DNA from: an uncultured Saprospiraceae bacterium
Lineage (GTDB): Bacteria > Bacteroidota > Bacteroidia > Chitinophagales > Saprospiraceae
Length of the DNA: 35,566 nt
NCBI GenBank assembly: GCA_937981555.1
Contig: CALJOK010000063.1
Span: 1-35,566 of the forward strand
Reading direction: 5' to 3'
Part shown: in pieces, positions 8,883 through 14,314 of the stretch
Numbering within the stretch: position 1 is the stretch's first letter
Layout of the letters: the number at the start of each line of letters is the position of its first letter
Made by a program: the position numbers and the translations under genes
The notes under the pieces: model-generated
Told to the model about the DNA's origin: nothing
The model's database searches: none
Seen by the model: the letters and a program-made list of their open reading frames with translations, nothing else

Positions 8883-11375
8883 TTAAAAAGCCCTGACAGC
8901 ACGAGTACGTCTGGAGAGTTGTCCCTTAGAAGTACCATACTGTTGGCCATTGAGGAAGTAAATGTTCCACGCATCGGTGATGTTATTTTCGGTAGAACTC
9001 CAGTAGACTAAGTATTCAAAACCACCAAGCCCAATATTCCCTCCCAGCCAAAGGTTGTAATACATTAAACTCAGTTCTTCCTTCGAAGGCAAAAACCAGT
9101 CATCATATAAAATACCATCTATGGTTACTGAATAGTCATCGCAAATCTTGGCAGCTGTTCCATCTTCACTACATCCATTTATTATTGCTGTTGTATTCGC
9201 TTGACCACTACCTACTGCTGTACTTGTTCCTACTATAGACGTCCCAGGACAACCCCAACGTCTGGTGAAATCTCCATTATAATCCTGATCATTCAACGCC
9301 GCTACCAATCCATGCTGCCCACTAGCATCCAGGTAAAATATAATACCTCCGGCATGTGCATCGCCTATTTGCAATGGACAAGGCCCCCAGGTAGGTACAC
9401 CGTCACAAAAGGTTAAGTTTTGCCCCGTCGTTCCTGGCGTAACACTTACCCAATTGGTTCCATTCCAGTAATTCATCTCGCCGTTTTGGGTTCCATTCGG
9501 AATTGTTCCTTGTGTCCCCTGAATCCCCTGAACACCTTGTGGACCTTGTGCACCAGTTGCACCAATTTCTCCATTTGTTCCATTTGTTCCATCAGTCCCC
9601 GCTGGACCTTGTGGCCCTTGTGACCCAGCAGCTGATGCTTGCCAAGTTCCTGTTCCATTTGCATCTGAAGTCAGAACATGACCTACTGTTGCTCCTGTCG
9701 TTACTTGGATTCCTTGTGTCCGAGTATTTCCTGCAACGTCCAATAATTCCTGTGGGTCATCTGTGCCAATACCTAGTCGTCCTACCATGTCGATGCGCAT
9801 TGCCTCTTCCATCTGTCCGGTTGGATTACCGTAAGGTTGAGTCCAAAATCTCAAGCTTCCTCCAAAGTTTCCAGAAGTACCGTTCTTATCTTTTCCGCCA
9901 TAGATTCCGGCAGTACGAATAGGAGTTGGATCGTTAGCCCAGTACGGACTTGCGAAGACAATTCCAGAGCCGAGTGATCCAGGAGCAGCAGCAGCAGGAT
10001 TCGTTGACTCCACTCGAAGTGCATTGGGACCGTCATCTACTGAAGGCAATTCGTCTCCGATATTGACAGAGAATTTCGCCCTCGCAATACCTGGGAAATG
10101 TGTCGTACCGATGGCAAGTCGTTTGTTTACATTATCCCAAAAAAGATCTGCGTCACTATTCAAGGTCTCGCTGTCTGTATTAAAGAAAGCAATCTCAGTT
10201 GGTGTTCCGTTGTTTGTTCCAGGTCCAATTGGTCCTTGTGATCCAGTTTCTCCTTGGATTCCTTGTGCGCCAGTTTCACCATTCAATCCGTCCGTTCCAT
10301 CAATTCCATTTGTTCCATTTATTCCTGATGGACCAGTTGCTCCTTGAAGACCAGTTTCACCTTGGATTCCTTGGGCGCCTGTTTCACCATTCATCCCGTC
10401 AATTCCATCAACTCCATTTGTTCCATTTGTTCCTGATGCGCCAGTTACTCCTTGAGGACCTGTTTCGCCCTGAATTCCTTGTGCGCCTGTTTCACCATTC
10501 AATCCATCAACTCCATCTGTTCCATTTATTCCTGGCAATCCATTTGTTCCTTGGATCCCTTGTGGTCCCTCAGGTCCAGCTGTATTGTCTGTCCAACTAT
10601 AAATTCCATTTCCGTCTGTAGAAAGAACTTGATCGGTATTACCTCCTACTGGTAATTCAATTTCATTATTTGGATCATAATCTGCGTCATTAACATCAAT
10701 CCCTGTCAAGGCTGATCCATCACCGAAAAAATTATCAGCAGTTACATCCTGACCTACAATAAGATTTTTTATGATTTTAACATTTCCACCTTTTTTGACA
10801 CGCATCCTTTCTATATCTTTTGTAACAATGATTAGATGTTCATCATCAAGGGTTCCTAATTTATGAATGGAAGCATCAGTATTGGCATTTCCTTTAGTAA
10901 GCCAATTCTTATTAACTCTACTCCTAGATTCGACACTATTCTCCTCTCCGACAACTTCAGAGGCAGTCGCTGCATGGAAAGCAAAGGGAACGGTCAACAG
11001 CTTGGTATTACTGAGCACTTCAAAGTTGCTGCCACCATCAGTATCAATAGCAAGTTCCATCCAAATGTCTTGAGAGCTCCAAGGTACTTCCGAAAAAATA
11101 CCGAAGTCTGCTTCACCTTGTCCAATGGTCACCGTAAATAATCCTAGTTTGTTCGTCCTTACTTGATGAACTTCCGAATAAGTTTCTATATCTATTTCTT
11201 TAGTATTTCGACTCATCAAAGTCACCTTTAGCGTGATATCTTGGTCAGCCATTACCTTTCCAGAATGTTCTCGTGCTACTGCTTGATAGTTCATACCTTG
11301 AGGAACTGATTGTGCCAGTATGGAAAAAGTAATACTGAAACACAGTATTATAAGTAAGTAGATTCTTTTTGTCAT
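8883..11375 (-). CDS. Secreted collagen-like protein with C-terminal DUF1566 (Lcl-type) domain
   Basis: Exported 830-aa protein. A signal peptide (1-21, ending ILAQ) is followed by a Bacteroidota N-terminal module (VPQGMNYQAVAR to LLTVPFAFHAATASE, 24-139). Gly-X-Y block 1 spans 267-386 (40 triplets), then a non-collagenous middle segment, then Gly-X-Y block 2 (584-623). The C-terminal DUF1566 domain (about 670-830) has GGIIFYLD, DDWFLPSKEEL, YWSSTE and TRAVRAF. Collagen repeats plus DUF1566 is the layout of the Legionella adhesin Lcl, so a trimeric stalk with a lectin-like tip, and an adhesive role, are inferred. It has no T9SS sorting domain of its own, but the gene 43 bp upstream on the same strand encodes a T9SS type A cargo protein. 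Block 1 contains a tandem 36-residue repeat. Confidence 0.85.
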   Translation of the reverse strand: MTKRIYLLIILCFSITFSILAQSVPQGMNYQAVAREHSGKVMADQDITLKVTLMSRNTKEIDIETYSEVHQVRTNKLGLFTVTIGQGEADFGIFSEVPWSSQDIWMELAIDTDGGSNFEVLSNTKLLTVPFAFHAATASEVVGEENSVESRSRVNKNWLTKGNANTDASIHKLGTLDDEHLIIVTKDIERMRVKKGGNVKIIKNLIVGQDVTADNFFGDGSALTGIDVNDADYDPNNEIELPVGGNTDQVLSTDGNGIYSWTDNTAGPEGPQGIQGTNGLPGINGTDGVDGLNGETGAQGIQGETGPQGVTGASGTNGTNGVDGIDGMNGETGAQGIQGETGLQGATGPSGINGTNGIDGTDGLNGETGAQGIQGETGSQGPIGPGTNNGTPTEIAFFNTDSETLNSDADLFWDNVNKRLAIGTTHFPGIARAKFSVNIGDELPSVDDGPNALRVESTNPAAAAPGSLGSGIVFASPYWANDPTPIRTAGIYGGKDKNGTSGNFGGSLRFWTQPYGNPTGQMEEAMRIDMVGRLGIGTDDPQELLDVAGNTRTQGIQVTTGATVGHVLTSDANGTGTWQASAAGSQGPQGPAGTDGTNGTNGEIGATGAQGPQGVQGIQGTQGTIPNGTQNGEMNYWNGTNWVSVTPGTTGQNLTFCDGVPTWGPCPLQIGDAHAGGIIFYLDASGQHGLVAALNDQDYNGDFTRRWGCPGTSIVGTSTAVGSGQANTTAIINGCSEDGTAAKICDDYSVTIDGILYDDWFLPSKEELSLMYYNLWLGGNIGLGGFEYLVYWSSTENNITDAWNIYFLNGQQYGTSKGQLSRRTRAVRAF
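10218..10496 (-). repeat. Tandem 108-bp coding repeat in the collagen region
   Basis: Residues 294-329 and 330-365 of the collagen-like protein are two 36-residue copies beginning GETGAQGIQGETG. A partial third copy (366-386) follows. In DNA these are 10389-10496, 10281-10388 and 10218-10280. Differences are limited to a few X and Y positions, so the array arose by in-frame duplication and could change length by recombination. Confidence 0.8.
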
Positions 11376-11928: not shown

Positions 11929-12725
11929 AAGATTTTTTTGTAATTATTAAAAAATAAATTTGAATACGTCGGTAAAAGAGCTATCGACAAATCAGAAGGA
12001 TGTTTTCGATTAAATGCTCATCTATTCCAGAATTGTTTACCTATAGGATATTAAGGTTTCTTTATTCGTATATGCTTTGACTACTTAGTTTTTTTGTATC
12101 ACAAACAATACTCCTCTAATTCTTCCTCGTATAATTTGCATGCGTAGAAGTGGAATTCAATAAGTTGTAGACTTTGAATTTCACAACTTACCAGTTCTAC
12201 TCTCTACTATTTATTTAGTAATTAATTCACATTTATTTTTTATCCAAACCAATTAGAGTTAATCATTTAATATTCCCCTCAGGATCGATAAATGATAATT
12301 GTTTTCATGATAAAAAAAAATTAAGGAGTAATAAATTAATACTACAAAGGTAGAGGACAAAGGGGCGAGGAAAATAGGGGCTGGGTAGGAAATGCATGAA
12401 GGCTAGCCCCTAGTAATAATTATATAATTTAAAAAAAATGTTAAAGAAACCCATCATATGGAATTTTTTTGGCAACTCTTGTGTTATGACATTAACAACA
12501 AAGCAGAAAATAAAACGCAACGAAGACAAAGCTATAAAACTAAAATTTCTCGTCTTCTTCATTTATTTCTGATACACAAGTTTGGTTTTTGACTTGCCTA
12601 TTTCGTGGGCTGTCAACTGGTACGATTAAGATAACCTTGTTGTTGTAACAATGTATTTACAATCTGATTCTTAACCGAGTTTATCGAGGTATTGACCTTT
12701 GGTGAACACAAAATCTATATGTATT
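11929..12725. other. Long non-coding interval with a G-rich hairpin
   Basis: About 800 bp separate the divergent T9SS protein gene and the small peptide gene, with no convincing ORF on either strand. The stretch 12361-12412 stands out from the AT-rich surroundings: several G-runs (GGGG, GGGG, GGG) and an 8-bp inverted pair, TAGGGGCT (12375-12382) and AGCCCCTA (12405-12412). A minus-strand TACCTTTG (12352-12345) matches a -7 element but lacks a TTG at the right distance. The promoters for both flanking genes must lie here. I could not place either with confidence. Confidence 0.5.
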
Positions 12726-12839
12726 ATGAAAACTCAAAAATTAAAAAAACTTAAAGACTTTAAAAAATTTGCTATCAAGAAAGCTGCTTTGGAAAAAGTG
12801 AAGGGGGGGATTGTTATTGAGGATTTACACGATGGTTAG
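12726..12839 (+). CDS. Putative double-glycine leader peptide (RiPP/bacteriocin-like precursor)
   Basis: A 37-residue ORF. The first 28 residues form a Lys-rich amphipathic leader (MKTQKLKKLKDFKKFAIKKA, then ALEKVKGG) ending in Gly-Gly. The remaining nine are an acidic tail, IVIEDLHDG. Leaders ending in -KVKGG are typical of Bacteroidota bacteriocin-like or modified-peptide precursors that are cut after GG during export by C39-peptidase ABC transporters. A strong intrinsic terminator starts 9 bp after the stop, supporting a real transcript. The stop overlaps by 4 bp the end of the opposing 492-aa gene. No modifying enzyme or peptidase-containing transporter is in the window, so the peptide may be processed in trans. 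Function is unknown. The GG codons sit in a run of seven G, which could slip. Confidence 0.6.
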   Translation: MKTQKLKKLKDFKKFAIKKAALEKVKGGIVIEDLHDG

Positions 12840-14314
12840 GTCAATTTTGGAGGAGTTTTTAACTCCTCCATTTTTTTATAAACCCAACTCTTCAAAGCTA
12901 TTTTTTTTTGAATTCCAATTTCTTCTCTTACTTTCTTAATCTCTTCGACACTTCTATTATCCTTTCTATTAAGCTTAATTATCTTTTTCACACAGAACGT
13001 AAATGCAAAATATCGCTGTATTATTTCTAGAGAGAGAACCTTATCTTTTTTGAGTTGTATTTCAAAACTTTTGATATAATCTATTAAAGTTGAATAATAA
13101 GATGGGTCATATTTTAAAAGATCATAAGCAGTCCGTATCCACAATAACCTTGATCTAATGAATATAAACATGTTCTTTTTGTTATATGTTATTTCTCTAA
13201 GCAACTCTAGAGTTTTGTATAAACATTTATGATCTTTTTCAATTCCTACAAAGTAATTCCAAGATGCGAGAGCCATAAGTTTCGTCGTATAAGCCTCTTC
13301 TTTTGGCAAATATTTCTGATAATTATTTATAAAATTATAACACCACTCAAACTCCCTAAGATTCGTCGAAATTGATGTAATATTAAAATAAGTAGAAGCA
13401 GTCATGATATTATTATTCATGCTATACCCTTGCTTTAAGCCAAATTTAAACAATAAAAAAAGTTCTTTAAAAGCTTTTTCATTACCTTGATTTAATTGGC
13501 TAATACCATAATTTACCATATTCTGATAAATGAATTTTTGGCTTTTCAACTCAATTTTATGGAAATTAGAAAATAGTACTTTCTTGATCTCATCATAAAA
13601 CTTCGTTGATTTTTCTTCCTTTCTGAGTCTAATAATCTTATTATAAATATTTGTAACAGGCGGTAAAGATTCTTTCTTGTCTAACTCTTCTAATATCTCT
13701 TCTAAAAACTTAACGTCAACTGAAGTATTAATTCTTTTTGTCATCGTAATATGTTCCGCAGCTAATCTCAACTTAGCAGTTGTATAAAACATATCTAAAT
13801 CTTCCATTGAATCAAATAAGTACTTTGGTATGTTTTCCTTTCCATAAAAAAGGTAATCTCTCTGCACATCATACCGCTGAAAAAAATACTCCTCCTCCCG
13901 ATAAGGCGACTCCTCCAAATCAACCAAAACTCCCTCCACTTCCTTCTTATAATTTTTATACAAATTCCGATTGGTATATGCTTTCCCCTTCAACCTCCTC
14001 TGTAAAATTTTATCCTTTTGAAATTCCTGATACATATAAAATTCCTGAACCACACTCACCAAATTAGTCATAAGCAAATTCATCCTACCCTCATGATAAG
14101 CTTTTCCTTCAGGGTGAATGGAATGATATAAGTGCTCTTTCGTTAATTTTTTATGATTAAAACCTGGATGGTAAGAGAGTATTTTTTGGAGGAGAAGAAC
14201 AATTAATTTATTCGTGTTATGATAGGGAGATTTAGCAAACTTGATCAATAATTTAAGTTCTGATTCATCTATTTCCCTTAACAATTGAATTAATTTCCCA
14301 TCTTTTAACTCCAT
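12836..14314 (-). CDS. Helical protein of unknown function (492 aa)
   Basis: I do not recognise a named domain. The protein is Lys/Glu/Tyr-rich, without signal peptide or membrane segment, and looks all-helical, possibly TPR- or HEAT-like. The N-terminus (LIQLLREIDESELKLLIKFA, then KSPYHNTNK and YHPGFNHKKLTKEHLYHSIHP) resembles a set of uncharacterised paralogues I recall from Saprospiraceae-type genomes that begin with a similar LLR-L-EE-KFLRSPF-N pattern. Its last codons (MEELKTPPKLT) lie in the DNA that forms the terminator of the convergent GG-leader peptide gene, so the two genes share their 3' ends. A 21-bp palindrome lies about 70 bp upstream of the ATG. The region looks richer in AT and in ATA/AGA codons than the metabolic genes, which may indicate a different origin; this is an impression and was not computed. 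Confidence 0.75.
   Translation of the reverse strand: MELKDGKLIQLLREIDESELKLLIKFAKSPYHNTNKLIVLLLQKILSYHPGFNHKKLTKEHLYHSIHPEGKAYHEGRMNLLMTNLVSVVQEFYMYQEFQKDKILQRRLKGKAYTNRNLYKNYKKEVEGVLVDLEESPYREEEYFFQRYDVQRDYLFYGKENIPKYLFDSMEDLDMFYTTAKLRLAAEHITMTKRINTSVDVKFLEEILEELDKKESLPPVTNIYNKIIRLRKEEKSTKFYDEIKKVLFSNFHKIELKSQKFIYQNMVNYGISQLNQGNEKAFKELFLLFKFGLKQGYSMNNNIMTASTYFNITSISTNLREFEWCYNFINNYQKYLPKEEAYTTKLMALASWNYFVGIEKDHKCLYKTLELLREITYNKKNMFIFIRSRLLWIRTAYDLLKYDPSYYSTLIDYIKSFEIQLKKDKVLSLEIIQRYFAFTFCVKKIIKLNRKDNRSVEEIKKVREEIGIQKKIALKSWVYKKMEELKTPPKLT
12848..12877 (+). terminator. Terminator of the GG-leader peptide gene, inside the opposing gene
   Basis: TGGAGGAGTT (12848-12857), a TTT loop, AACTCCTCCA (12861-12870) and then seven T. 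A perfect 10-bp stem with U-tract on the plus strand only: on the minus strand the stem is followed by AAAATTGACC. It starts 9 bp after the peptide stop and encodes MEELKTPP on the other strand. Confidence 0.85.

Follow-up and report, generated by a model that had tools for sequence, protein, structure and literature searches.

Peptide quorum sensing read by cytosolic receptors is described, in excerpts of two papers, from Firmicutes and their mobile elements (PMC10075063; PMC9765709). The RRNPP signature is given in one of these excerpts as five criteria: a propeptide of 10-100 aa, Sec secretion (with PptAB exceptions), a receptor of 250-500 aa, peptide-binding tetratricopeptide repeats (TPRs) and neighbouring genes (PMC10075063). 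The titles and abstract openings of the literature matches listed held no account of cytosolic-receptor peptide signalling in Bacteroidota. Here we analysed a stretch of 35,566 nucleotides from an uncultured Saprospiraceae bacterium (contig CALJOK010000063.1, positions 1 to 35,566; hereafter the window), in which a 37-codon propeptide gene converges with the gene for a 492-aa helical protein. We judge it fairly probable that the two form a peptide-pheromone/receptor pair.

As in Rap-Phr and NprR-NprX, a small propeptide gene lies beside a gene for what is predicted to be a 250-500-aa cytosolic helical-repeat protein, the conserved part sits at the propeptide C-terminus, several pairs occur per genome, and the predicted fold of the partner aligns best with Rap/NprR in a second look with VIA. 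Unlike those systems, the pairs described here belong to Bacteroidota, their genes are convergent, their carriers are double-glycine (GG) leaders or signal-plus-domain proteins, and their nonapeptides hold an acidic residue or pair; ~100-140 N-terminal residues of the partner fall outside the fold match, and there is no sequence match. ComC/CSP-type double-glycine peptides, which C39 ABC transporters export, share a Lys-rich leader ending in KGG, and C39 proteins are encoded in the window's own genome. CSPs have a membrane kinase as their receptor, whereas the recurrent partner here is probably cytosolic and the peptide's tail is a shorter, acidic one. The short hydrophobic pheromone systems of streptococci, Rgg-SHP and ComR-ComS, may be similar in that the product of a tiny gene ends in a short, acidic peptide rich in Ile/Val, and some window relatives are leaderless too; Rgg has a helix-turn-helix (HTH) domain, whereas none was found in the window partner. 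SHP export is assigned to PptAB in the excerpt at hand, as against the GG leaders of window relatives (PMC10075063).

The propeptide gene and its partner

The propeptide gene (12726..12839, plus strand; 37 codons plus stop, translated as MKTQKLKKLKDFKKFAIKKAALEKVKGGIVIEDLHDG) has homologous propeptides in relatives. Its 37-aa product, inside the RRNPP propeptide range, consists of a Lys-rich 28-residue leader (12726..12809, +) ending in KVKGG (residues 24-28), with C39 cleavage predicted after GG, and a mature nonapeptide, IVIEDLHDG (12810..12836, +), equivalent to the conserved unit that is acidic at -5 and mostly aliphatic at -9 to -7 across propeptides. Translation thus confirmed the open reading frame (ORF), leader and tail proposed in a preliminary description of the window. 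By one regular expression this was the sole short KGG-type ORF in the window. The leader could be aligned to those of 13 further GG propeptides, all rows of the alignment having been picked for possessing KGG; the ComC Pfam match of the peptide was weak (E 0.0058, under the cut-off). By eye, the propeptide has no Sec-like signal and carries the GG leader instead. Its predicted mature part is free of Cys, Ser and Thr.

The partner gene (12836..14314, minus strand) shares the letters TTAG (12836..12839) with the propeptide gene, with which it converges, so that their stop codons overlap. The two are direct neighbours, as the RRNPP signature asks. The intrinsic terminator of the propeptide gene (12848..12877, +) lies within the last codons of the partner gene and begins 8 bases past the propeptide stop codon: a perfect hairpin of 10 pairs with a 3-base loop (12848-12870) is followed by T7 up to 12877. 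It was the sole terminator-like site within 12000-13500 (mean of 0.4 in shuffles) and was on the plus strand only. Hairpin, T7, strand and position inside the opposing gene were all as first described; the spacing from the stop codon, given there as 9 bases, was not.

The 492-aa product, our proposed receptor, is within the RRNPP receptor range, with relatives mostly of 465-500 aa. It is predicted to be all-helical (AlphaFold2 (AF2) model, pLDDT 82.9) and, on family comparison, probably cytosolic: none of 59 family proteins showed a membrane or signal segment by hydropathy. The protein had no sequence match in Pfam, NCBIfam, PHROGs, PADLOC or PDB, and neither a Pfam TPR match nor an HTH was found for it. 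Of 18 family members searched singly, Pfam yielded four scattered weak matches and NCBIfam one, none of them shared by two members; positions 331-371 of the family profile match consensus TPR designs. Two AF2 models were all-helical, and VIA placed Rap/NprR at ranks 1-11 and 1-6; Foldseek comparison of the models was not significant. By the VIA ranking, the predicted fold of the partner family resembles Rap/NprR.

A single-sequence search of the own genome returned 14 matches including the protein itself, to which the family hidden Markov model (HMM) added at least one, on contig C80. Homologues were present in 52 of 60 genomes searched, the own genome included, with at least 26 copies in one genome. 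At a strict cut-off the family occurred in 143 of 150 genomes of the organism's taxonomic family but in only 8 of 198 genomes of the phylum, 5 of them from that same taxonomic family, own included. Relatives come from the named organisms Lewinella cohaerens and Flavilitoribacter nigricans and from metagenome-assembled genomes of Lewinella and Saprospiraceae.

Convergent pairing across relatives

To score pairing, the convergent strand was read at the 3' end of each family gene. The first set held the window plus 60 fetched regions: 58 surround high-ranking homologues, and L151 and L152 were picked for their previously known peptides. Two of these 61 were left out, L121 because it is cut by a contig end and L136 because its frame falls outside the length filter, although a convergent KGG peptide is present; 59 loci were usable. 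Eighteen of the 59 form one side clade (support 100/98) without a convergent tail ORF, with no regular-expression match at the 3' end (0/18) and one chance match upstream. Outside that clade, a convergent tail matching our C-terminal regular expression lay near the 3' end of 32 of 41 family genes, against 0/41, 0/40, 0/39, 0/39 and 0/41 at control placements (200 in total) and 22 of 4100 in Markov-resampled sequence. A stop overlap of -4 was seen at 5 of 32 loci, the window among them, and a terminator-like site followed the peptide at 4 of those 5, again including the window.

The expression had been drawn up after the first-set loci were seen, and was then frozen for a hold-out. There it matched 11 of 28 loci (9 of 26 minus two loci seen before), with none among at most 56 control placements; hold-out loci L200 and L202 are the contigs of L161 and L164, of the same length and with the same peptide, and L209 and L212 had too little downstream sequence. 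Judged by eye and unblinded, 21 of the 28 hold-out loci have a related tail, ten of which the expression missed, L216 being the weakest. Three first-set loci that it also missed (L122, L148, L129) raise that set to 35 of 41; the convergent ORFs of these 35 have related acidic-aliphatic C-termini, and a KGG site is present in 18 of them. Conservation of the ORF and its GG site, on which the preliminary description had staked its reading, is thus borne out among relatives, the side clade apart. At least four pairs lie in the own genome, at contigs C63 (the window), C45, C80 and C115.

A sharp split into a paired subfamily A and an unpaired subfamily B was rejected, as several lower-scoring family genes are also paired. 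Some tail-less family genes converge, by eye, with a gene for a secreted or type IX secretion system-type protein (L125, L126, L131, L142, L227, L232). In other families of the order the expression matched at 1 of 24 loci, at the C-terminus of a longer frame, which we take as a false match; three of these loci had 300 bases or fewer downstream. A synteny search via the neighbouring DinB protein returned nothing in four same-genus genomes, and the best peptide match in a same-genus genome (G004) was discarded because it lies inside an unrelated longer frame.

Viewed from the peptide, the pairing recurred. An HMM of 14 GG propeptides gave 61 rows at E<=0.0035 in 20 genomes. Of 57 scored rows, 40 (counting L250) converge with a family gene, 17 have no family gene in the flank examined, and none has one in another orientation only. 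Among the four remaining rows, L255, L071 and L148 are paired convergently and L254 is not; it sits where a contig begins, and its only family gene is on the 5' side. Most GG matches stand beside a family gene.

Several propeptides departed from the simple layout. At L228:2811-2948 (own genome, C64), L229:3471-3647 (C106) and L012 (G001), the mature part can be read as two nonapeptides in tandem, for example IGNDDIEAG + ITGEDFEVV. The neighbours of L228 and L229 resemble, by eye, integrase and primase, and no family gene was seen alongside the L228 propeptide. Two successive GG propeptide genes precede a single family gene at L282 (G082:C75); at L279 (G132:C546) two such genes stand with no family gene in the flank examined. 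L280:2001-2102 (G018:C33) encodes a GG propeptide with the tail LVVTDVLAF, also with no family gene in the flank examined, a possible orphan signal.

The nonapeptide tail and its carriers

A letter-by-letter check of 32 propeptides found D/E at position -5 and E/D/T at position -6 in every one, with I, V, T or G prevailing at positions -9 to -7. Among 39 tails of paired peptide-side rows, partly the same as the 32, an acidic residue stands at -5 in 38 and D/E/T/S at -6 in 32 of the 39; the background rate of an acidic -5 is 9% of 938 C-termini. Codon differences within the tail were synonymous in 84 cases and non-synonymous in 14, counted pairwise and so not independently over six orthologue sets. 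In the 11 closest receptor pairs, mean identity was 0.76 for the tail versus 0.25 for the rest of the propeptide. Over all pairs, similarity of receptors and of tails was weakly related and not significant (Mantel, 126 of 1000). The mature part spans 9-23 residues across 16 GG propeptides, with the shortest length of 9 in 4 of them; in the window it would be the bare nonapeptide.

One tail type is borne by varied carriers, whose signals and domains were judged by eye: GG leaders, leaderless peptides of 21-44 residues, and small proteins with signal-like or lipoprotein-like N-termini. GG and leaderless relatives measure 21-57 aa, and those with signal-like N-termini exceed the 100-aa limit, with open frames of 111-156 aa from stop to stop; Sec-like signals were recognized by eye in some relatives only. 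On the receptor tree the carrier changed 14 times for four labels. Because two unrelated export routes serve one tail, we argue that the tail acts after export.

GG leaders need C39 peptidases, which were present in 18 of 18 genomes checked. No match was found on the window's contig, in keeping with the preliminary description; the own genome has three PF03412 (C39) matches in trans, on contigs C75, C29 and C37. Two lie in 729-aa ORFs, each followed by a HlyD-like ORF (by eye), and the third in a 170-aa ORF. With these and at least four pairs in the genome, the precursor is not the orphan, stand-alone gene once proposed. No enzyme for ribosomally synthesized and post-translationally modified peptides came up in Pfam/NCBIfam scans that covered the partner, the two closest genes to the left and five to the right. 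That absence had been noted before; together with a mature part devoid of Cys, Ser and Thr, it speaks against the accompanying suggestion of a bacteriocin-like or modified-peptide precursor.

Proposed mechanism and rival readings

In a peptide-pheromone/receptor pair, a C39 exporter whose gene lies elsewhere in the genome would remove the GG leader from the short-gene propeptide, freeing IVIEDLHDG. The nonapeptide would be re-imported and bound by the cytosolic TPR-like 492-aa protein from the opposite strand, and binding may alter the interaction of that protein with a regulator, as in Rap-Phr. By analogy the pair would work like RRNPP systems but is not filed as a member, because phylum, GG export and convergence differ, the window propeptide shows no Sec-like signal by eye, and TPRs and peptide binding are putative. 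A signal peptide and a new two-gene system, both floated in the preliminary description, are the readings that computation supports best. The broader proposition strikes us as evenly balanced: a Gram-negative counterpart of RRNPP with several to many parallel channels per Saprospiraceae-type genome, each a convergent nonapeptide gene plus a cytosolic Rap-like receptor, in which the carrier is swapped freely and the nonapeptide code is kept.

A tail that is C-terminal and kept as carriers vary, beside a partner that looks cytosolic, would also suit a cytosolic chaperone or export adaptor gripping the precursor until export, the tail being a recognition tag and no signal. We think this unlikely, since GG and Sec-like carriers own separate export routes and minimal cases, the window included, would export little beyond the tag. 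Neighbouring genes raise another reading, in which a membrane kinase, such as the hybrid two-component or seven-transmembrane kinases that adjoin some pairs, senses the peptide and the helical protein only modulates the pathway. HisKA/HATPase kinases adjoin pairs at six loci (L100, L104, L105, L114, L115, L119), four of them hybrids with AraC domains; LytTR genes occur at L105 and L110 and, by BLAST, at L123. These neighbours are suggestive only: a kinase-type BLAST neighbour was found at 9 of 41 loci versus 2 of 18 side-clade loci, and none is adjacent in the window among the neighbours scanned. No single neighbour was shared by most pairs, and the recurring unit is the pair itself. We hold sensing by a kinase distinctly unlikely.

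A bacteriocin-like toxin peptide with its immunity protein would account for several different pairs per genome, and GG leaders are common in bacteriocins. Against it stand the shortness and acidity of the nonapeptide product and the conservation of tails between orthologues, and immunity proteins are not known to resemble a cytosolic helical protein of 490 aa; we hold this very unlikely. A register fixed relative to the stop codon behind a variable N-terminus recalls nascent-chain arrest, or a leader peptide, with the ribosome stalling on the final codons, an idea made highly improbable by a partner gene on the opposite strand, by tails that also terminate domain proteins with signal-like N-termini, and by the GG site in many propeptides. 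Finally, a short ORF in an AT-rich convergent intergenic region could arise by chance, which is scarcely credible here because of the pairing against controls, the hold-out, the synonymous bias in the tails, their fixed positions and the peptide-side pairing.

Elsewhere in the window, 8883-11375 (minus strand) encodes a protein of 830 aa that carries collagen-like repeats and matches the Lcl_C domain weakly.

If the peptide-pheromone/receptor reading is true, Gram-negative bacteria would gain a direct RRNPP analogue with dozens of testable ligand-receptor pairs, and a function would be proposed for an unnamed family with at least 26 copies in one genome. One ligand would also be shown able to change export routes in evolution.
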